Below are positions 53,649 to 64,000 of a stretch of 64,000 bases of DNA, one piece after another. The DNA is taken from assembly GCF_030316135.1 (NCBI RefSeq), contig NZ_CP128185.1:3224001-3288000 (forward strand), read 5' to 3'. Position 1 is the first letter of the stretch. Each line of letters opens with the position of its first letter. This DNA is from Aliiglaciecola sp. LCG003 (lineage in GTDB: Bacteria > Pseudomonadota > Gammaproteobacteria > Enterobacterales > Alteromonadaceae). The translations under genes were made by a program, and so were the position numbers. The notes below the pieces were generated by a model. It had not been told where the DNA came from and ran no database searches. It saw only the letters and a program-made list of their open reading frames with translations.

Positions 53649-56600
53649 TTGAACCCTAAAGATCTTCTTTATCATCACATTAACAGCATACTAGTATTTT
53701 CTGGCGCTAAGAACATTAGTGTCTGGCATCCCCAATTGAATGATGAAATGGGGAGCTTTAATGTGGGTGAATTTGGTCCTAATGAAACTCCGATTGAAGC
53801 GTCACAGGTTGGGGAAGTAAACGTCTTTGCTAAACAAGATAGTGCGTTTAACAATATGGCGTTTAAGGCAATCTCGGCGACCACTTTGTTAGTTAAAATT
53901 ACGGAAGAGCCCTTAGCTGATTCAATCTACTCTAACCTTGCCTCTAACAATAAAGCAACAGCGTCAGAAATAGCCTCCCGTCGCGCGCCGATTAAGACTT
54001 TCGATGACAACACTTGGTTTCTGATGCAATTTAATTTTGCCCAGCAGATACCGAATTGGTTGTCTCCTGATCAATCAAATCAACAACTGATGGTTTCGTC
54101 TGATAAGTTAGTCACTGTTCAGCATATGCTGCAATCAACTGTGATGCAGATGCGTTTGATTTCCGAATTTTTAACGCTCTTGTCTGACCCCTTGACAAAT
54201 CTGTGCTCCCGCACCGTATTGCAGAACAAGATCGCTCAGCTGAGTAACCAATATTCGGTGGGCTTGATCATGGTTCACTGTATTGACTTTCACCAAATAA
54301 ATAGAAAATTTGGCAATGAGTTTGGCGACAATGTTATTCGCGAGATAGCCGAATTGCTCAAATCCAGTACCCGAGAAAATGATATTTTAAGTCGCTATGG
54401 CGGTGCCTTATTCGGTGTAGCTTTTCCGGTAAATGAAAAGACCGATGTGGCAAGCTTTGCCAAAAAATTACAATTAATTCTGCAACAGAGACATTACTTG
54501 GATGGGGCTATTAATCTAGCTTTTGATGTCGGTGCTGCCATTATTGAATATAGTGAAGACTACCCATCAAAATCCGCATGTGCATCTGTGTTGATCAGTC
54601 GCGCAGATCAAGCATTAAAAGCAGCCCAGAAAGAAGAGAAGCCATCGATTATTACCTGGCACAAAGATGATTTCAGTCTTTATCAACAAAAATTTAATTA
54701 TCTAGGCGGGATATTTACAGCAGATACCATCACCGATTATCGCAACATGCTGTTGTTATGGGACATATCTTCATTAATCGCCGACAAATACGATTTTTCC
54801 CAGTTGGCGCAAAGCGTCATACAGCGTCTGGCACAAACCTTTGATTTTATGTGCGCCGGCGTGATCGGTCCAAACGAGCAACAGCAACAATATCTATACT
54901 CTATCGACAGTAATGATGATGCGGTCGCCATGACAGCACAAGATAGTGCCTTTCTAACCGAAATAAAACAAATGCAACAAAGCGTGATGGCTAGCGACAA
55001 ACCCTCTGAAAGGCTAGTTGGAAGCACTATTATTTTGGTCTTGCCACTTGAAATAGAAACTGCCGACTGCTTATTTATTTGTGGTAAAGCTAGCCAATTT
55101 GAAGTTAAACATGATACCCAGGTTTTGCTCTCAGGTTTAACTCGTCAGTTAGGTAAGGCGCTACGCAGAAGTAAATTAGAAGAGGAGCTCAACCGTAAAC
55201 TGGAAAGCCAAAATGAGCAGTTGCAACATGAACTGACCCAGTTAAAAGAAGGCCTACAAGTTAGCAGCATTATTTATCGTTCGCAGGCAATGGCAAATCT
55301 ACTCAAGCACGCCAAACGCGCCGCTATGACTGACACCACAGTATTGATTACCGGGGAAAGCGGTACAGGTAAAGAACGTCTTATCAACGCATTACATCAG
55401 ATGGGCAATCGCAATAATAAGTCCTTAGTCATTGTAGATTGTGGCTCTATCCCTGAAAGCCTAATAGAGTCAGAATTATTTGGTTATGTAAAAGGTGCGT
55501 TTACTGGTGCGCAGAACACCTCTTCCGGAAAAGTGTTAGATGCCGAAGGCGGTATTTTAGTCTTAGATGAAATAGGTGAGTTACCGCTAAATATGCAAAC
55601 CAAGCTGTTGCGTTTCGTACAGGAAAAACACTTCACTCCTGTTGGCGGCAATAAGGTCATAACTGTCGATGTTAAAATCATTGCGGTAACAAACCGAGAT
55701 TTGGCCTTTGAAGTCGAGCAGGGTAACTTTCGCAAAGACTTGTATTATCGATTAAACGTTTTGACCTTATATAATCCACCGCTGCGTGAAAGGCCAGAAG
55801 ATATCGAATTGCTGGCAACTCACTTTTTGACCAAGTACGCCGAACAATTCAAATTGGAAAAACGCAACCTATCGACTAATGCACTGCAAAAGATGCTGCA
55901 CTATACATGGCCGGGTAATATTCGTGAGCTAGAAAATCGATTAATGCAGGCAACCTTACTGTGTGAAGGAAAAGTAATTGAGTGGGGGCTATTGAACATT
56001 GAAGACGATGTACGCCCCACAGCCGCCCAGACTGAAAATCATTCACGATTGCCAGCTCAAAGTCCTGCTCCGCCCTACCCTGGGGTGAATTCGCTAGTCA
56101 ATTCCAACAACAATCATGCGGGTTATTCAGAGCCTGATTATAATGCTGAACGCTTTTCGAGCCAACAAGACAACAACTCGACAAATAACTATGCCAGAAG
56201 TGAAGTACACACAACTATGGTCAGTGCACAACATTGCACTGAAATGTTGTTAGATATCTTCAAGCAAACACTTAGCCAAGCAGGCCAACATCCCCAATTT
56301 GTCAATGCGCCCTTTGGCAGTTGGATTGAAGATGAATTGATTATTAAAACCTATATTGCTAGCGATCGAAAAATGCGTCTTACTGCTGCTAGACTGTCTA
56401 TTTCGCAGAGTACGGCAAGACGAAAAGTCGATAAAATTTTAGCTGAGGGAGACATGACTGAAAGCCATAGGCCCAGTAATTGGCATGTAATCAGTGAGGC
56501 ATTAGCTCCTATCGCCAATGGTCAGGTAGTGCTCAAGAATTGTGTGGCTCAAATTAAATTGTTAGTACTGGAAAGTATATTGAGTACACCTGTATATAGT

Positions 56601-56681
56601 ATGGCTCAGGCGGCAGAAATGTTGGGTGTGAGTGAACCAACCTTTTACAAATTGAAACGTGAGCTAGACGCATCTCAATGA
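53649..56681 (+). CDS. Sigma-54-dependent activator with degenerate GGDEF domain and two C-terminal HTH segments
   Basis: A 1010-residue cytosolic regulator starting at TTG with a weak ribosome-binding site. Residues 1-180 are unassigned. About 185-345 is a GGDEF-fold domain whose signature is 'RYGGALFGV', so the catalytic Asp/Glu are lost and it cannot be a normal diguanylate cyclase. About 370-510 looks GAF-like. The AAA+ domain has Walker A 'GESGTGKE' (near 568), the sigma-54 contact loop 'GAFTGA' (near 616) and Walker B 'ILVLDEIGEL'. The C-terminus has two Fis-like helix-turn-helix segments: 'LTAARLSISQSTARRKVDKI' (about 910-930) and 'MAQAAEMLGVSEPTFYKLKR' (about 984-1004). It probably activates sigma-54 promoters in response to a small molecule, perhaps c-di-GMP. 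Confidence 0.88.
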   Translation: MNPKDLLYHHINSILVFSGAKNISVWHPQLNDEMGSFNVGEFGPNETPIEASQVGEVNVFAKQDSAFNNMAFKAISATTLLVKITEEPLADSIYSNLASNNKATASEIASRRAPIKTFDDNTWFLMQFNFAQQIPNWLSPDQSNQQLMVSSDKLVTVQHMLQSTVMQMRLISEFLTLLSDPLTNLCSRTVLQNKIAQLSNQYSVGLIMVHCIDFHQINRKFGNEFGDNVIREIAELLKSSTRENDILSRYGGALFGVAFPVNEKTDVASFAKKLQLILQQRHYLDGAINLAFDVGAAIIEYSEDYPSKSACASVLISRADQALKAAQKEEKPSIITWHKDDFSLYQQKFNYLGGIFTADTITDYRNMLLLWDISSLIADKYDFSQLAQSVIQRLAQTFDFMCAGVIGPNEQQQQYLYSIDSNDDAVAMTAQDSAFLTEIKQMQQSVMASDKPSERLVGSTIILVLPLEIETADCLFICGKASQFEVKHDTQVLLSGLTRQLGKALRRSKLEEELNRKLESQNEQLQHELTQLKEGLQVSSIIYRSQAMANLLKHAKRAAMTDTTVLITGESGTGKERLINALHQMGNRNNKSLVIVDCGSIPESLIESELFGYVKGAFTGAQNTSSGKVLDAEGGILVLDEIGELPLNMQTKLLRFVQEKHFTPVGGNKVITVDVKIIAVTNRDLAFEVEQGNFRKDLYYRLNVLTLYNPPLRERPEDIELLATHFLTKYAEQFKLEKRNLSTNALQKMLHYTWPGNIRELENRLMQATLLCEGKVIEWGLLNIEDDVRPTAAQTENHSRLPAQSPAPPYPGVNSLVNSNNNHAGYSEPDYNAERFSSQQDNNSTNNYARSEVHTTMVSAQHCTEMLLDIFKQTLSQAGQHPQFVNAPFGSWIEDELIIKTYIASDRKMRLTAARLSISQSTARRKVDKILAEGDMTESHRPSNWHVISEALAPIANGQVVLKNCVAQIKLLVLESILSTPVYSMAQAAEMLGVSEPTFYKLKRELDASQ

Positions 56682-56768: not shown

Positions 56769-59700
56769 CTAACGTCTGCTGGTTTGGATATCCATGACTT
56801 TTGCCGTGCCATCCTGCAATACCTGCTTAACCCTGACATAGCCTTCGTCAATCACGTTATCAATATTCTGAGTCAAGGTATTCATGATACTGACCGGAGG
56901 CATCTCGGCTGATTGCAAGATCCCAGTCCATTGATTACGTCCGCCTTCTTTGGACTTGTAAAGAGCATTGTCAGCCAATAAATGTACCTGCTCCCAACTC
57001 AGTGAATCTGGATAATGATGAGAGAAAGGATACATACTGTAGCCAATTGAACAGGATAAATGCATTTTTTGTTTCAAATTGATGTCGAAGCCAAACCCAG
57101 ATATTTTGCTGCGTAAGCGTTCTGCTAACAACTCAATTTCACTGACTTCTTCAACACGCCCCATGATCAGGAACTCATCTCCCCCCCAACGGATTACTGT
57201 ATCGGATTTGCGGCATACGAGCTTCAGCAGGTCACTCACCTGACATATCACTTTGTCGCCAGCATCATGGCCATAGGTATCATTTATGGGTTTAAAACCA
57301 TCTAGATCGAACATGAGGAAGAATAATCGTGGACCACTGTCTGCAGTACAACGGCCAGTGACCAGGTTTTCTTCAAATTCACGGAACACGCTGGCACATT
57401 GCTGCTCGATAATATTATTTAGATAGCGTCTATTGTGCAGCCCGGTTAGCTGATCTGTCACACTAGCATTAAGTAACTGCTCGTTGGCTTCACGTAATTC
57501 CACTGTTCTACTCTTTACTTCTAATTCCAACTCTTGGCGATAATTAGCTTCTTTTTCAAGCTTGTTAAGGTAGGAGCGATAAATCCAGTAGAGTAATCCA
57601 AGGGCAAACCCAGCGTAGATTGTATATGCCCACCAAGAATACCAAGGGGCGGGCAATACGGTTAGGGCCACATCGACTCCTTGCTCATTCCATATACCAT
57701 CATTATTTGACGCTTTGACTCGAAATAAATATTGGCCGGCAGGCAGGTTAGTATATGTTGCTTTTCGAATATCGCCGGCCTCGATCCAGTTATTATCGAA
57801 ACCCTCAAGTTTATATAGGTAACGGTTGTTACTTGGCGAAGCAAAGTCCAAACCAGCAAACTCAAAAGCAATCAAATAATCTTTGTGGGATATTTGTATA
57901 TTACTGTGGTCATTGCCTGAGGCGTCGATACTAAAGACTTCATTTAGCTTCTGAAACTTAGTTAACACCACAGGTGGAATGTGTTTATTTGGTGAAATTT
58001 TTTCTGGAAAGAACGAAGTCACTCCATTAGTTCCGCCAAAATATAATTTACCATCAGCAGATTGATAGTAAGCACCGGCGTTAAATTCGTTGCCTTGTAA
58101 GCCATGAGAACTATCAAAATTTAATAGTTCTTTAGTCTCAGGGTCAAGTTTAGTTAAGCCTCGGTTAGTGCTTAACCAGAGCAAGCCACTTGAGTCTTCC
58201 AAAATACCAAACACATTACTACTGGGTAGACCTTCATAGCGAGATATGCGCTCAAATTGAAAATTACCCACCTTGCGATTTTCGGCGGACAACTTGACCA
58301 CGCCCCCGCCACGAGTCCCGATCCAAATATTGTCCTTTGAATCCTCAAAAATAGACCAGATTTCATTACTGCCGAGTTCATTGGGCGAGCCTTGATCCGA
58401 TTTAATTCGCATCGCAGTAGCAGTAGTGGGATTGAAGATATTTAATCCTCCTCCCCAGGTTCCTACCCAAATTAATCCATTTCTAGCCCGAAGCACGGAA
58501 AGAACTCTATTGGTGCTAAGGGTTTGTAAGTTAGTTTTGTCATGTTTATAGCGGGTAAAGGTTTGGGTTTGTATATCGAACAAGTTTAAGCCACCACCGA
58601 AGGTACCCACCCACAACTTATTATTTCCAGCAGGCTCAATGGCGGTTACCCCTGGCGCACCCAAAGTTTGAGGATTTAACTTATCGCTTTCATAATGGGT
58701 AAAACGCATTGTTTTCGTGTTTAATTTGCTCATGCCCTTGTCTTGGTAACCAATATAGAGTTCATCACCATTATCAGAGTATAGTGCCATCACCTTGTCG
58801 CTCAGCAGCGAATTTAGGTTATCGGGTTGGTGATTCAAGTGAACAATGTTACCACTTTCGACATCCAGTAAATCTAATCCGCTCAATGAACCTATCCATA
58901 GTTTCCCAGCTGCGCCATCATGAAAGGTATTGATATAACTCCCAGCTAAGCTTTTATCTTTGTCCGCTCCTACCCTGATATGATCGAAATTGGATGTTGC
59001 TGTATTCCACTTATTCAGTCCTTTTATACTGCCGACCCAAAAAACATTACCGCGGTCTTGGTACAAATAATTCAATTGATTATCGGACAGACTATAGGGA
59101 TTTTGCTTCTCGTTTTTAATATGTAGGAAGCTTTCTCGATCCGGTTGCATTCGATACAGACCATTATCAGTTGCCAACCAGACCTTGTTGGCTTTATCTT
59201 GGTACACATGGGAAACAGTTTCTTTTTCAAGTATGGCAGGGCTCCAAACGTCGAATTCGGTTTGTTCAGCATTAGGTGGCGTGATCACCTTAACACCTAT
59301 GCCCAGACCACCAATCCAGAGACGTTGCTGACTATCAACAAGAAGGGTTTTGGCTGCAGACAGCGAAGTACCCGTAAGGGTGTCTAAGGTCCCACCGTCA
59401 ATTAATACCTCTAAGGTATCTGGGTTAATTTTCACCACGCCTGAATTTGAACTTGCGACCCACAGGTTTCCACTGGCATCTTCAGTAATGCTAAGAATGG
59501 CTTCGATAGTGTTATCACTTAGAGGCACGTAGGTAAAATCATCGGTCAACGGGTTATAGCGGTTCAGTCCGCCATCGGTCCCAATCCAAATAACATTGGT
59601 AGAAGATACAAACAGGAACCTTACAATGTCGTTGCTGACCGTGCCTGGTTGCTCGGGATCGTGTCGATAAGACTTAAAGGTTTGACTGGCTTTATCAAAA

Positions 59701-60041
59701 ACATTGATACCGCCACGGGTACCGACCCATAGTTTATTTTTTTGTGGCTCGACTATATGATAAATCCAATCTGAGCTAAGTGATTCTTTATTCCGTGAAC
59801 TGTAGGTAAACACTTTAAATTGATAACCATCATAGCGATTCAGCCCCTCTTGTGTGCCGAACCACATGAAGCCTTCGGAATCTTGAAATGCAGTGGAGAC
59901 GTTTTCCTGGGATAATCCTTGTTCAAGAGCGATACGCTGAAAACGAATATTCTGATTGTCAGCAAGTACATTAGTTGCAGAAGTCAATCCCAGAGCGATC
60001 CAGAAGACTACAAAAATGTTTTTAAACATGACATATCTCAT
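56769..60041 (-). CDS. Membrane diguanylate cyclase with periplasmic propeller sensor (Reg_prop/Y_Y_Y/GGDEF)
   Basis: A 1090-residue membrane protein. After a signal peptide (about residues 1-28) comes a periplasmic double propeller built from repeated 'IWIGT-GG-LN'-type units ('LWVGTRGGINVF', 'IWIGTDGGLNRY'), then a Y_Y_Y domain near 740-785 ('YKLEGFDNNWIEAG'). One membrane helix is at about 800-825, followed by a short coiled coil. The cytosolic GGDEF domain is intact: 'RWGGDEFL' near 950, with the inhibitory RxxD site (RKSD) five residues before it. It therefore makes c-di-GMP in response to an outside ligand, often a polysaccharide in this sensor class. It converges with the sigma-54 activator gene. 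A second in-frame ATG at 60029 is possible. Confidence 0.92.
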   Translation of the reverse strand: MRYVMFKNIFVVFWIALGLTSATNVLADNQNIRFQRIALEQGLSQENVSTAFQDSEGFMWFGTQEGLNRYDGYQFKVFTYSSRNKESLSSDWIYHIVEPQKNKLWVGTRGGINVFDKASQTFKSYRHDPEQPGTVSNDIVRFLFVSSTNVIWIGTDGGLNRYNPLTDDFTYVPLSDNTIEAILSITEDASGNLWVASSNSGVVKINPDTLEVLIDGGTLDTLTGTSLSAAKTLLVDSQQRLWIGGLGIGVKVITPPNAEQTEFDVWSPAILEKETVSHVYQDKANKVWLATDNGLYRMQPDRESFLHIKNEKQNPYSLSDNQLNYLYQDRGNVFWVGSIKGLNKWNTATSNFDHIRVGADKDKSLAGSYINTFHDGAAGKLWIGSLSGLDLLDVESGNIVHLNHQPDNLNSLLSDKVMALYSDNGDELYIGYQDKGMSKLNTKTMRFTHYESDKLNPQTLGAPGVTAIEPAGNNKLWVGTFGGGLNLFDIQTQTFTRYKHDKTNLQTLSTNRVLSVLRARNGLIWVGTWGGGLNIFNPTTATAMRIKSDQGSPNELGSNEIWSIFEDSKDNIWIGTRGGGVVKLSAENRKVGNFQFERISRYEGLPSSNVFGILEDSSGLLWLSTNRGLTKLDPETKELLNFDSSHGLQGNEFNAGAYYQSADGKLYFGGTNGVTSFFPEKISPNKHIPPVVLTKFQKLNEVFSIDASGNDHSNIQISHKDYLIAFEFAGLDFASPSNNRYLYKLEGFDNNWIEAGDIRKATYTNLPAGQYLFRVKASNNDGIWNEQGVDVALTVLPAPWYSWWAYTIYAGFALGLLYWIYRSYLNKLEKEANYRQELELEVKSRTVELREANEQLLNASVTDQLTGLHNRRYLNNIIEQQCASVFREFEENLVTGRCTADSGPRLFFLMFDLDGFKPINDTYGHDAGDKVICQVSDLLKLVCRKSDTVIRWGGDEFLIMGRVEEVSEIELLAERLRSKISGFGFDINLKQKMHLSCSIGYSMYPFSHHYPDSLSWEQVHLLADNALYKSKEGGRNQWTGILQSAEMPPVSIMNTLTQNIDNVIDEGYVRVKQVLQDGTAKVMDIQTSRR

Positions 60042-60221
60042 TAATTTTCAATACCTTAATCTCGTAATGTAGCATATTCCAGCTAACACCAATGTATTTT
60101 TCTGCAGTCACAATCACTATTTTTGATGTTAAATTATGAGTAAAGGACGCTAGAGCATTTATTTAACTATCAATAGATGCGCTTGATTAGCGTAGCTAAC
60201 TTAACAAATAATTAGAATAAA

Positions 60222-60253
60222 AAAAGCTGCACTTTAGTATAAGTGCAGCTTTT
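60222..60253 (-). terminator. Rho-independent terminator of the S8 protease gene
   Basis: AAAAGCTGCACTT and AAGTGCAGCTTTT form a perfect 13-bp stem around TAGTAT, with a T-run on the minus strand. Just after the protease stop codon. Confidence 0.92.
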
Positions 60254-60265
60254 GACAGATATTAA

Positions 60266-62317
60266 TTAAATAGCGGGTAGCTCGCTTAAAAGATCGTTAG
60301 AGCTTTTTTGTTGTTTAGCAGGCTTTTCATCAACATTTGCTACGCTTTCAATCGCAGCAAGTGCCTTCCATGCAAAGCCTTCAACAAATGCATTGGTGTC
60401 CCATACTGAACCTTCAAGAGCAGACATGCGATCCCAGACCGAACCTTGTAATCCAGTGGATACGTCCCACACCGAACCTTGCAGACCAGTTGAGACATCC
60501 CACACAGAACCTTGCAATCCGGTAGATACATCCCACACAGAGCCTTGCAATCCGGTAGATACATCCCACACAGAGCCTTGCAATCCAGTAGATACATCCC
60601 ACACAGAACCTTGCAATCCGGTAGATACATCCCACACTGAGCCTTGCAACCCAGTAGATACATCCCACACAGAGCCTTGCAACCCAGTAGATACATCCCA
60701 CACAGAGCCTTGCAACCCAGTAGATACATCCCACACTGAACCTTCCAAGACCGCAGACGACCCCATTACAGCGCCTTCAATCAAAATTGTGGTATCAGAA
60801 AGCTTGATATAAATCTCACCATTGTCTGCAACTTGAGCAGGTCCTTCAAAGTGCGCGCTACCTATCAAATCAGCAACTAGATCCAGCCCGTTGTTTGCAC
60901 AACCCGTCGCTTGGCTCATGGTTGCTGCATATGCATCAACAAGACCAGAACCTTGGGTGAAAGGACCATATTTGTATCCGTTATCAGGATTGGTGATTGC
61001 GCTTGCGCTAGCCATCAAACGACATTTGACATCATCAGGACTAAGCGCTGGATCATGTTGCAGCATAAGAGCAACCACACCCGTTACAACTGCAGCTGCT
61101 TGTGAAGTACCAGACACCATGTAGTAATCTTCACCCTCTTCAGAAGGAGCATGATTTTGTTTGATTAACTTACTTTTATCCAGTTTTGAACGAATATGGC
61201 CACCATAAGAAACAACTTCTGGCTTGATGAAACCTTCATAAGTTGGACCTCGTGAAGAGAACGTGGTCATGCGATCATCAGAGGTATCAAAAGGAGTGTA
61301 ACTATCAGTGATAGCACCGACAGAAATAACATAAGGCACATTACTTGGCAGGGTCACTGTATTGTAATCAGAACCTGTGTTACCCACAGAGGTAACTACT
61401 ACTACACCAGCATCCCATAAACGCATGACAGCCTGATTGATTGGATCTTCCCAATAATTTGATTGAACTTCAGCACCCAATGACATATTTACAACGCGAA
61501 TATTTAGACGTTCACGATTCTCAAATACATAGTTCAATCCATTCAACACATCGGAGTAGCTACCATTACCGGTTTCATCAAAGGCTTTTACTGACAAAAG
61601 GTAAACATCTGGCGCCATACCATTGTATTTGCCTGAATCACTTTTAAGGCTACTAGCAATAATACCAGTAACGTGACTTCCGTGACCGTTAAGATCATCG
61701 TCTAACTCTGTGCTTACTACACCTGTGATAGCATCATACTTATCAAAAGCACGATTTTGATAATTAGTGTTATAAAGCAAAGATTCACCCTGCTTACCCC
61801 CCATTAAAGAACCACTATCAATAACAGCAACAGTGACGCCCTGACCGGTTATGCCTTGTTGATGCAATAAGTCAGCTTTGGTTTGCGTGGTAATATAATT
61901 ATCAATAGCGTACTTCTTCACATTTGCACTGGCATCAGTGGCAGCGCTATTGTCAGCCATTGTCATCATGGCTCTGTCAGCGGTTACCTTAACCGCAGCG
62001 ATTTTAGCAATTTCACTAATCTGAGAATCAGATAAATAGGCGCTAACAGCACTAATTATCGGGAACTCGCGCGATACTACACCACCGGCATTTTCCACTA
62101 CAGCAACAAGCGCATCACGACTTAAGCCTTGTAGAATATAAGACTGTTGTTGGTTTACTTGCTGTTGGCGCACTGTCATTTGGGTCGTGCTCACCGACTG
62201 GGTAAAGAACGGTACACTTGATGCGTTCGATTGTGATGTCACTAACACAGCGGAAACACTGGTAACCAGTGATAACGCTCCGACAACCAATGTTTTTCTA
62301 TCTGTAAAAAAGCTCAT
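60266..62317 (-). CDS. Secreted S8 (subtilisin-like) serine protease with C-terminal 11-residue repeats
   Basis: A 683-residue exported protease. I chose the ATG at 62317 (GGAG eight bases upstream), giving a normal signal peptide ending near 'TSQSNASS'. Residues about 58-118 look like an inhibitor I9-type propeptide. The catalytic triad is Asp167 ('VAVIDSGS'), His212 ('GHGSHVTG') and Ser405 ('SGTSQAAAVV'), with the oxyanion Asn in 'VGNTG'; all are intact. Residues 526-624 are nine identical copies of GSVWDVSTGLQ, then three diverged copies to about 657 and a charged tail. The repeats probably form an extended or stacked stalk. The upstream region has a sigma-54-type promoter, and an orphan GspC-like gene is next door. 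It is likely a secreted or surface protease. Confidence 0.92.
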   Translation of the reverse strand: MSFFTDRKTLVVGALSLVTSVSAVLVTSQSNASSVPFFTQSVSTTQMTVRQQQVNQQQSYILQGLSRDALVAVVENAGGVVSREFPIISAVSAYLSDSQISEIAKIAAVKVTADRAMMTMADNSAATDASANVKKYAIDNYITTQTKADLLHQQGITGQGVTVAVIDSGSLMGGKQGESLLYNTNYQNRAFDKYDAITGVVSTELDDDLNGHGSHVTGIIASSLKSDSGKYNGMAPDVYLLSVKAFDETGNGSYSDVLNGLNYVFENRERLNIRVVNMSLGAEVQSNYWEDPINQAVMRLWDAGVVVVTSVGNTGSDYNTVTLPSNVPYVISVGAITDSYTPFDTSDDRMTTFSSRGPTYEGFIKPEVVSYGGHIRSKLDKSKLIKQNHAPSEEGEDYYMVSGTSQAAAVVTGVVALMLQHDPALSPDDVKCRLMASASAITNPDNGYKYGPFTQGSGLVDAYAATMSQATGCANNGLDLVADLIGSAHFEGPAQVADNGEIYIKLSDTTILIEGAVMGSSAVLEGSVWDVSTGLQGSVWDVSTGLQGSVWDVSTGLQGSVWDVSTGLQGSVWDVSTGLQGSVWDVSTGLQGSVWDVSTGLQGSVWDVSTGLQGSVWDVSTGLQGSVWDRMSALEGSVWDTNAFVEGFAWKALAAIESVANVDEKPAKQQKSSNDLLSELPAI
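60446..60742 (-). repeat. Nine tandem 33-bp repeats coding GSVWDVSTGLQ
   Basis: Nine head-to-tail 33-base units without spacers. All nine encode the same 11 residues, while the DNA differs at some third positions, so the protein sequence has been kept identical by selection or recent copying. Three further diverged units (GSVWDRMSALE, GSVWDTNAFVE, GFAWKALAAIE) follow at 60347-60445. The repeat keeps several reading frames open, creating false ORFs. Confidence 0.95.
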
Positions 62318-62381
62318 TTTCACTACTCCATAGCGCAATTATATTAAATATTGCATTTTCATTAATCAACTGACTTGATAA

Positions 62382-62397
62382 TGCAGTTTTAATGCCA
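62382..62397 (-). promoter_or_regulatory. Sigma-54 (RpoN) type promoter of the S8 protease gene
   Basis: On the minus strand TGGCATTAAAACTGCA. The -24 TGGCA and the -12 TGC are present with the exact spacing required (10 bases between GG and GC). The predicted transcription start is near 62371, giving a leader of about 55 bases, close to that of the PEP-CTERM gene at the other end of the window. Confidence 0.72.
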
Positions 62398-62458
62398 ACT
62401 TTATGAATGTAGATATGCTGTTGATTTATAATTATTTATTTTTAACTTGAGGACTTAA
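62398..62458. other. AT-rich spacer between the sigma-54-type promoter and upstream repeats
   Basis: Short AT-rich stretch; no gene. It is a suitable distance for DNA looping or bending between the upstream elements and the promoter. Confidence 0.4.
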
Positions 62459-62525
62459 AGTTAAAATATGAAAGACCTGAGTTAAAATATGGTGCGCCAC
62501 AAAAAATAAACGTCATATTTTAAGT
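62459..62525. promoter_or_regulatory. Three copies of the element A(G/C)TTAAAATATG, candidate activator-binding sites
   Basis: AGTTAAAATATG occurs at 62459-62470 and again at 62480-62491, exactly 21 bases (two helical turns) apart. A third copy is inverted, CATATTTTAAGT at 62514-62525 (11 of 12 bases match). They lie about 90-150 bases upstream of the predicted start of the S8 protease transcript, the usual place for a sigma-54 activator to bind. Confidence 0.6.
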
Positions 62526-62808
62526 CTATTTTAATAGTGGAATTAAATTACCTTTGATTTTATGCAATTGCTTGAAGGTAGCTTCAATATACCTTGATAG
62601 CCAACCAGCGAATATTAACCATCCCTAGCCATTATCAGAAAGGTACATCTAGGCAATTAGTATTGTCGTACTCCTTATCATCGGTTGTTAAAGTTGATCA
62701 AGCAGTCAACAGCATAGATAAAGGTGTTAATGATAAATAAAGCATTGTACCAAGAAGCGGTCCTCGTTATCCTTTTAGCTAAATATAACAGCCGCTAAAG
62801 AGATCCAA
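62526..62808. other. Intergenic region before the GspC-like gene
   Basis: About 280 bases with no gene seen; it should contain the promoter of the rightward GspC-like gene. Confidence 0.4.
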
Positions 62809-63648
62809 ATGAGCGATAGCCCCAATTCTAACAGTAAATTAATTTTATCTGCACTCGCCTTGGCAATAGCTATCTTGGCTTACTTTATGTTTTTCAATGA
62901 CAGTCGAGCACCGATTGAATTGACTGAAGAAGCCAAGTTGATTACCCAAGATAGAGGCAAAAAAGCAGTTGACGTTGTACAGCAAGCATCGTCAAGCCAA
63001 GCAGTGAGTAATCCACTTGATCTTAAAAGCCTCATAGTGACGCCATTAGATTTAACCTTGTTAGGTGTGGTTAGCAGTGATAAGCAACATGAGTCCTCTG
63101 CAACTATTCAGTCTCGGTTGCAAGTTCGCACGTATTTCATCGGCGACCAAATTGCGTACACCAATGCCACTTTGATAGAAATACGCAGTGATCGGGTTGT
63201 GATTTTGAATCAAGGTGATAAACAAGTATTGCTGATACGTGGCTCCGCTAATTCAACCACCAACAATCAGTCAGATAGCGCCGAAAAAACAGCTCCACAA
63301 GGTATAAGAAATAATGATATTAGTTCATCTTCCCTAGCCCTAAGTATTGGGAATCGTCCAAAACGACTTGAACACATAGTGATTTTGTTAGGAAATCAAA
63401 CTAATGGCAACGGACTTATAGTTTCCCCTGGTTTAAATCCCAAACTATTTAAATCGGCTGGATTTAAAGAAGGTGACCTGTTACAAAAAGTGAATGGTTT
63501 TGATGTGGACAGCGAGGACGGGTTAAATAGCATTCAGCAGACGATAGAAAACGCACAGACATTGGTATTTAGCGTACTTAGAGGTGGTAAGATCATTACT
63601 CTATATTTGGATATTCCTTCGGAAAATCTTGAACTCAAACTAAATTAA
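62809..63648 (+). CDS. Orphan GspC-like (type II secretion) inner-membrane protein
   Basis: A 279-residue protein with one N-terminal membrane helix (about residues 10-29, 'LILSALALAIAILAYFMFF'). A GspC homology region follows at about 75-148 ('TPLDLTLLGVVSS', 'RTYFIGDQIAYTNATLIEI', 'RVVILNQGDKQVLLIRG'). A low-complexity linker leads to a PDZ-like domain at about 195-265 ('GLIVSPGLNPKLFKSAGFKEGDLLQKVNG'). This is the layout of GspC, the inner-membrane link to the secretin in type II secretion. No other gsp gene is present in the window, and it lies divergent from a secreted protease. It may serve as a substrate-specific variant of GspC (inference). Confidence 0.82.
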   Translation: MSDSPNSNSKLILSALALAIAILAYFMFFNDSRAPIELTEEAKLITQDRGKKAVDVVQQASSSQAVSNPLDLKSLIVTPLDLTLLGVVSSDKQHESSATIQSRLQVRTYFIGDQIAYTNATLIEIRSDRVVILNQGDKQVLLIRGSANSTTNNQSDSAEKTAPQGIRNNDISSSSLALSIGNRPKRLEHIVILLGNQTNGNGLIVSPGLNPKLFKSAGFKEGDLLQKVNGFDVDSEDGLNSIQQTIENAQTLVFSVLRGGKIITLYLDIPSENLELKLN

Positions 63649-63686
63649 TTTTTATACCTAAACCCGTATTAATAGGTTAACTCGAT

Positions 63687-63709
63687 AATCAGCAACTGGG
63701 TTGCTGATT
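63687..63709 (+). terminator. 9-bp hairpin after the GspC-like gene
   Basis: AATCAGCAA and TTGCTGATT pair around CTGGG, 38 bases after the stop. No T-run follows, so termination is uncertain. Confidence 0.45.
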
Positions 63710-63870
63710 GTTGGCAAAATGGCAAAAACAGTTTTTGTTAAGATAAGCTGTTTGCAGTAACAGGTTAGTTTATTAATGCCATGCATAAAGGGTTAAGTTT
63801 GGAAACAAGATATAATTAAGAGGAGAAGTGCTAAGAAAAGTGTTTGAGAAAATTTGTAATTCGTAACTAA

Positions 63871-63898
63871 ATTTTGCAGAAAAATATTTCTGCAAAAT
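63871..63898 (-). terminator. 12-bp inverted repeat downstream of tRNA-Leu
   Basis: ATTTTGCAGAAA and TTTCTGCAAAAT pair perfectly around AATA. It is AT-rich and followed on the minus strand by TTTAGTTA. It may end the tRNA transcript. Confidence 0.5.
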
Positions 63899-63942
63899 CA
63901 ATCACTATCCCATTATTTAATATACACAAGATACAAAATAAA

Positions 63943-64000
63943 TGGTGCGGAAGGAGAGACTTGAACTCTCACGCCGTGAAGCACTGGAACCTAAATCCAG
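63943..64000 (-). tRNA. tRNA-Leu (anticodon UAG), partial
   Basis: Read on the minus strand, the visible part starts in the anticodon stem (CTGGA-TTTAGGT-TCCAG, anticodon TAG), then a long variable arm typical of tRNA-Leu, a T arm GAGAGTTCAAGTCTCTC and the acceptor end with an encoded CCA. The anticodon region closely resembles E. coli tRNA-Leu(UAG). The 5' part (D arm and acceptor strand) lies beyond the right edge. Confidence 0.93.

Follow-up and report, generated by a model that had tools for sequence, protein, structure and literature searches.

A predicted sigma-54 promoter with an enhancer array upstream of an S8 repeat protease gene and its probable cognate activator in Aliiglaciecola sp. 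LCG003

The S8 (subtilase) repeat protease gene of Aliiglaciecola sp. LCG003 very probably has a dedicated sigma-54 promoter with an enhancer array of its own, and the protein encoded at 53649-56681 would be the cognate activator. The window, i.e. the whole stretch of DNA analysed here, comprises 64,000 nucleotides (positions 3224001-3288000 of a chromosome of 4,411,932 bases).

In agreement with an earlier note on this DNA, which had placed a sigma-54 site at the right distance before the protease gene, a predicted -24/-12 site, TGGCATTAAAACTGCA, is found at 62382-62397 on the minus strand, with one mismatch to TGGCAYN5TTGCW. The mismatch lies in the -12 half, CTGCA, which is one base off the consensus TTGCW and counts against the site. 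The site aligns with TGGCAY..TGCW in five promoters of relatives; in all six aligned promoters this pattern occupies the equal alignment place, with GG and GC conserved ten bases apart. The genome contains an rpoN gene (518 bits), and exact matches to TGGCAYN6TGCW are enriched (57 sites, vs 13 for the reversed pattern), which indicates that sigma-54 promoters of this type are real in this genome. From the GC of the -12 half, the transcription start was estimated at about 62371, leaving a 5' untranslated region of an estimated 54 nt or so. The list of open reading frames starts the gene at a TTG (62338); the ATG at 62317 is the conserved start.

The target gene (60266-62317, minus strand) encodes an S8 protease with a signal-like N-terminus and C-terminal GSVWDVSTGLQ tandem repeats. 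Directly 3' of it, at 60222-60253 on the minus strand, lies a hairpin followed by T resembling an intrinsic terminator; hence, the transcript probably carries the protease gene alone. All 14 S8 proteases whose tails were compared (that at 60266-62317 and those of L060, L062, L063, L064, L066, L067, L070, L142, L143, L144, L150, L184 and L192) end in short repeats with a constant tryptophan, and the repeat sequence varies by lineage (GSVWDVSTGLQ, EGTVWN, EGHQWGDTG, EGAHWTTES, FIWEEA, HLWPDA and SQLWGNVRFN). In the contigs of two metagenome-assembled genomes (MAGs), L182 (6812-8558) and L185 (16376-18279), the S8 gene is split over two reading frames, which may reflect assembly error or decay.

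Upstream of the -24/-12 site, three copies of an asymmetric element with the consensus ACTTAAAWWATGA are arranged in the order +,-,- relative to the protease. Element 1, ACTTAAAATATG, occupies 62514-62525 on the minus strand and reads in the direction of the protease gene (+); it is 128 bp upstream of the T that opens the -24 box. Elements 2 and 3 both read AGTTAAAATATG on the plus strand, inverted relative to the protease, at 62480-62491 and 62459-62470, 94 and 73 bp upstream of the same T. The two exact direct copies described previously, spaced by exactly 21 bp, were thus recovered, as was the inverted copy, which differs from the 12-mer of the earlier note by one mismatch. Their placement 90-150 bases upstream of the start is accurate when counted from the predicted transcription start at about 62371 (88-154 bp) and inaccurate from the ATG at 62317 (142-208 bp). 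Element 1 fits the cross-species consensus best, and the two AGTTAAAATATG copies carry a G at position 2; this consensus was built from 44 copies picked at up to 2 mismatches from ACTTAAAATATG and is hence biased toward ACTTAAAATATG.

We searched for the protease in nine genomes of the genus including our own (own and G001-G008). Orthologues with 66-68% identity were present in four of the others, G001, G002, G003 and G006, giving five orthologous promoters, of which two belong to G001 and those of G002 and G003 are near-identical. G004 lacks a good protease match, the gene apparently falling in an assembly gap, and both protease and activator are missing from G005 (59% complete). With the first T of the -24 box as reference, element positions are -128 (+), -94 (-) and -73 (-) in our genome, at -130, -94 and -74 in both G001 promoters, and at -128, -94 and -74 in G006. 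The G002 and G003 promoters have elements at -128 and -73 with at most 1 mismatch, no recognisable middle copy, and an extra 2-mismatch copy at -165. All three elements are therefore within 2 bp of our own places in 3/5 orthologous promoters, and the first and third in the other 2/5. Mean conservation over the six aligned promoters was complete in the -24/-12 core (1.00) and higher in the elements (0.88) than at the remaining positions (0.70); the value for the elements was reached in 1/175 circular shifts of the element mask. In the distant relatives G007 and G008 (three genes), the sigma-54 site is kept with one to three elements at other spacings, and overall the array is diverged, rearranged or not found in G007, G008, G060, G153 and G196.

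A sigma-54 site also stands before S8 homologues of another genus (L150, L151; also L093). The word ahead of it differs, being of the TTCGCCAT type and present as a repeat in L151, and is possibly a third enhancer specificity. A lanthipeptide context, suspected by look for the third G008 protease copy, was dismissed after a scan of six proteins (five of them at the locus): four gave matches to other enzyme families and the small one gave none.

For a search independent of the window, a sequence-only model of 154 positions (R1) was built from seven promoters, those of G001 (two), G002, G003, G006, G054 and G121, with our own genome left out; its E-values are rough. In the 4.41 Mb of our genome, the site in the window ranked top (32.5 bits, E 3.4e-7; 150 of 1481 first-look candidates scored). 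The second match (E 1.1e-3) fell at 2.63 Mb, in the element region of a second S8 gene, with the gene itself on the other strand. Within the genus, R1 gave 11 matches with E<1e-4, all at S8 promoters: five training sites, three in G008, and one each in G007, our genome and G004; the G004 match stops at a contig edge, next to a gspC-like gene.

The family search covered 196 genomes drawn from a larger group, with 15 candidates scored per genome under stricter filters. It yielded 12 matches at E<=1e-5 in 10 genomes, all of them activator-bearing; 7/12 are training sites. Of the other three activator-bearing genomes, G196 gave E 7.2e-4, and G060 and G153 had no match at 0.001. Weaker matches (1.1e-5 to 1e-3) occurred in many genomes without the activator. 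Reading 25 weak-match loci (4 in our genome, 5 in the genus and 16 in the family) led us to reject them as regulon members: most look like ordinary sigma-54 promoters with a TGGC-type site after an A+T-rich, IHF-like block, and a reading frame was present in the downstream range scanned at 22/25, 9 of these being pspA-like. In a named collection, 25 of 30 loci were searched, L177-L180 and L183 having been seen already. Further S8 promoters with E<=4.5e-8 were found in a Paraglaciecola MAG (L182), Alteromonas aestuariivivens (L184), a Glaciecola MAG (L185) and Agaribacter marinus (L192). Matches were weaker in L187 (=G007), L188 (=G196) and L189 (=G060); L190 has both activator and S8 gene, with an R1 match of only E 0.17 away from the S8 start, and L191 and L193-L206 gave no R1 match at 0.5.

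These results bear on whether the arrangement could have arisen by chance, as a fortuitous repeat and a weak sigma-54 look-alike in AT-rich intergenic DNA. A sigma-54 match alone (at most 1 mismatch, either strand) appeared in the upstream 200 bp in 45/2000 shuffles, and the 12-mer of the earlier note occurs at background level in the genome (47 sites with at most 1 mismatch, vs 67 for the reversed pattern). In dinucleotide shuffles of the intergenic region, two exact direct copies of a 12-mer no more than 60 bp apart appeared in 17/4000, and such a pair with an inverted copy (at most 1 mismatch) in 1/4000. Against a chance origin, order and spacing are conserved before proteases of 66-68% identity, the held-out model recovers the site, paralogue promoters (see below) have the same layout, and the footprint of the aligned promoters contradicts such an origin, which we consider to have next to no chance of being correct. 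The earlier note had named a scattered and unconserved 12-mer as evidence against its reading: single words are indeed scattered at background, but the array is conserved. The signal is carried by the array and its conservation, not by the single word; the 12-mer was accordingly dropped as a regulon marker, since genome-wide it gave only background, and the array was modelled in its place.

The same distinction emerges from the consensus element. With at most 1 mismatch, ACTTAAAWWATGA has 54 sites in the genome, fewer than the reversed pattern (75). Pairs of such sites within 200 bp occur at only two places, one upstream of each S8 gene; by our own arithmetic, about 0.13 such pairs would be expected from 54 random points. 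At the second S8 gene (2.63 Mb), the promoter contains one exact and one 1-mismatch match. When 30 of the 57 TGGCAYN6TGCW loci were read for elements, one had a single 2-mismatch element and none had a pair; the other 27 sites, that in the window included, were outside this reading.

The probable cognate activator is encoded at 53649-56681 on the plus strand. It consists of a degenerate GGDEF domain (GGALF, with the RxxD kept), an AAA+ domain, which is a sigma-54 interaction domain with Walker A (GESGTGKE) and GAFTGA motifs, and two C-terminal HTH-like segments. The Pfam HTH scores of these segments are below the curated cut-offs, and both are conserved in the alignment. An orthologue at E<=1e-120 is present in 13/196 family genomes. 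In 12/13 it lies on the same stretch as an S8 gene, a few kb apart, the S8 protein of G153 being diverged (37-40% identical). In the thirteenth, G004, one contig breaks off within the likely repeat tail of the protease, and the promoter match stands at the beginning of another. Activator relatives, often beside a Reg_prop protein, extend to other Gammaproteobacteria and to MAGs of Thermoanaerobaculia; beyond the family they comprise L196 (Thiocystis violacea), L193 (a Thalassotalea MAG), L194 and L197-L206, with an S8 match in L193 and L196 only.

The sigma-54 activator domain has 12 matches in our genome, one of them the linked protein, so linkage does not prove which activator acts here. That the sigma-54 promoter is genuine but a different activator or DNA-binding protein reads its elements is nevertheless unlikely, in view of the near-constant neighbourhood of activator and S8 gene, broken in one genome by an assembly gap, and of the confinement of all 12 R1 matches at E<=1e-5 to activator-bearing genomes. 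Furthermore, the element differs where a paralogous activator is linked. G002, G003 and G006 each have a further cluster, which contains paralogues of both the activator and the S8 gene, and the promoters of these clusters show the same +,-,- layout and a sigma-54 site, with a GAAAAWAATGAATGC-like element. ACTTAAAATATG was found at up to 2 mismatches in 0/3 paralogue promoters, and the GAAAAWAATGAATGC-like element at up to 3 mismatches in 0/6 orthologous promoters; as the GAAAAWAATGAATGC consensus was read from the paralogue promoters, its count there is circular and only its absence elsewhere is independent. Our own genome kept the second S8 gene and showed no second activator of the paralogue type in a search at E 1e-40. 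Its best match to the paralogous activator is the activator in the window (34% identity), the other 11 matches covering the AAA+ part alone. The first-type element at the second S8 promoter is what would be expected if one activator serves both S8 genes. Linkage, the genomic specificity of the array and the paralogous clusters with their different element together strengthen the connection, previously proposed, to the activator encoded 6 kb away.

The intergenic region is shared with a divergent gene at 62809-63648 on the plus strand, a GspC-like gene of the conserved cluster. A stand-alone GspC-like gene divergent to the protease was seen in our genome, G001-G004, G006, G008:C23, G054, G060, G121, G196, L182, L184, L185, L190 and L192, and none was found next to the protease in G007, G008:C4 and L193; this neighbour suggests a link of the protease to type II secretion. 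Lying within the shared region, the elements might serve the GspC-like gene instead, or both genes, and in L184 R1 also matches the opposite strand (E 1.2e-5). Such a second match is expected of an inverted array, however, and TGGCAYN5TTGCW (at most 2 mismatches, GG and GC fixed) was found on the gspC side at 0/13 loci scanned, our own among the genes with no sigma-54 site found on that side. Spacing is fixed relative to the protease -24/-12 site in the nearest relatives, and in G008:C4 the protease promoter occurs where no neighbouring gspC-like frame was found. Hence, a role of the elements at the GspC-like gene appears quite improbable, and we retain the protease as their target. Under the same settings, the pattern was found before the Reg_prop gene at 0/10 loci and before the activator, among 8 loci, only as TGGAATATTATTTGCT in G001. 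A tRNA gene suspected at the right edge of the window was not borne out, as ARAGORN found none in 60000-64000.

Between the elements and the -24/-12 site, an IHF-like site, AATCAACAGCATA, lies at 62414-62426 on the minus strand, 29 bp upstream of the -24 T. It agrees at 12/13 positions with the IHF consensus used for scoring, which we take to be WATCAANNNNTTR. Matches of at least 12/13 were present in 9/18 promoters, counted without a shuffle control, eight of them at -29 and one at -30. The mean conservation of the block is 0.74, and by eye a comparable block is found at about the equal place in pspA-type sigma-54 promoters. A role of IHF at this block is therefore suggestive only. Another conserved block, AGGTAATTTAATT, at 62541-62553 on the minus strand upstream of element 1, was recognised by eye in our genome, G001 (two genes), G002, G003 and G006, with small changes in G001; it is separate from the activator element.

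Generally, the architecture of an activator-controlled sigma-54 promoter, as proposed in the earlier note, gains computational support from footprinting, the held-out model, the rpoN gene, the position of the activator beside S8 in 12/13 genomes, and an IHF-like site present in roughly half of the promoters inspected. The sites, their spacing in the nearest relatives, the S8-restricted pairs, the activator linkage and the paralogue element were obtained by computation, and from these we infer binding and the dependence on rpoN and IHF. Activator subunits, each with two HTH segments, would bind the asymmetric ACTTAAAWWATGA at three places (+,-,-), probably with one HTH pair per site. IHF may bend the DNA between the elements and the -24/-12 site, so that the GAFTGA loops of the AAA+ domains could contact the RNA polymerase-sigma-54 complex there, and ATP hydrolysis would remodel this complex. 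More tentatively, the activity of the system may be set by cyclic di-GMP from an adjacent beta-propeller diguanylate cyclase, read by the degenerate GGDEF domain of the activator.

The adjacent protein, encoded at 56769-60041 on the minus strand, combines a Reg_prop beta-propeller, a Y_Y_Y domain and a GGDEF domain with intact RWGGDEF and RxxD motifs, and is likely a sensory diguanylate cyclase. We aligned 34 activators (13 family orthologues, 2 paralogues and 19 from the named collection). The catalytic acids of GG(D/E)EF are lost in 34/34, and the RxxD five residues before the GGDEF motif is kept in 32/34, our own included, the exceptions being G153 and L199. In the best-scoring GGDEF sequence of solved structure, RKSD aligns with REND of the activator. 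These features tentatively suggest that the activator reads cyclic di-GMP through the RxxD of its degenerate GGDEF domain. The domain may instead be a dimerisation or GTP-binding module only, the signal entering through another N-terminal segment or a partner, a reading to which we give only a little short of an even chance. Degenerate GGDEF domains can serve other roles, according to the available part of PMC10333796, and two activators lack the RxxD, but retention of this motif throughout the others, despite complete loss of the catalytic acids, speaks against it. So do the cyclase motifs, RWGGDEF with RxxD, intact in the neighbouring Reg_prop protein in 11/11 clusters examined, and the GGDEF-EAL genes in four examined clusters, those of G054 and L184 and the paralogue-type clusters L083 (G002) and L150 (G180). 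For the paralogue clusters, the one sensor examined, from G002, is of the hybrid histidine kinase type.

Enhancer arrays at sigma-54 promoters are already well known (PMC7057263, in its accessible part). In the classical case described there, activator sites lie about 100-150 bp upstream, looping is assisted by IHF, and contact is made by GAFTGA. The present promoter shares the -24/-12 site, the upstream sites and an AAA+ activator with GAFTGA. It differs, as far as the accessible part of that source goes, in an element without match to a known site, asymmetric and in mixed orientation, in two HTH-like segments, in a GGDEF domain in place of the receiver domain, and in paired elements that occur in our genome only before S8 genes. 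The closest NCBIfam match of the activator is PrsR (TIGR02915), at 314.6 bits vs a cut-off of 502.6 and only from residue 518 on; no Response_reg match was found at E 0.001, and the GGDEF domain is found where the receiver would lie. By score and domain content the activator is not a PrsR member. The accessible text on PrsK-PrsR describes an RpoN-dependent promoter with a predicted enhancer before a PEP-CTERM gene (PMC9850573), whereas the target here is an S8 protease.

FleQ, FlrA and VpsR are described, in what was available of PMC10333796, as NtrC-type cyclic di-GMP receptors. Like them, the activator is an AAA+ enhancer-binding regulator, for which a response to cyclic di-GMP is only proposed; FleQ binds the ligand on its AAA+ domain, and the candidate site here, an RxxD, belongs to a GGDEF domain that is separate and degenerate. 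Closer in this respect are PelD and PopA, which the excerpts of PMC8461298 and PMC10333796 present as degenerate GGDEF receptors with the catalytic motif lost and RxxD retained, and from which the present case, with ligand binding proposed, differs in the fusion partner of the domain, a sigma-54 activator in place of a polysaccharide or cell-cycle factor. Literature searches, with most subscription journals outside their coverage, returned no paper on the cluster or the element, nor any report of this activator domain set, of its apparently single-type target or of paralogous copies with diverged elements.

Taken together, the cluster may form a self-contained module, in which the beta-propeller cyclase would supply cyclic di-GMP to a sigma-54 activator with a dead GGDEF domain, which in turn would switch on only tryptophan-repeat S8 proteases through asymmetric sites read by tandem HTH segments, coexisting paralogues being insulated by their diverged elements. 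As a whole, this is a possibility that we place clearly short of an even chance. The cluster of S8 repeat protease, beta-propeller cyclase and sigma-54 activator can now be treated as a testable circuit whose promoter and enhancer element are defined and whose cognate regulator is probable. Where paralogue clusters with different elements share one cell, they offer a clean system for how sigma-54 activators separate their enhancers. If the GGDEF domain gates the activator, it would constitute a route from cyclic di-GMP to a sigma-54 promoter unlike the binding to the AAA+ domain in FleQ.
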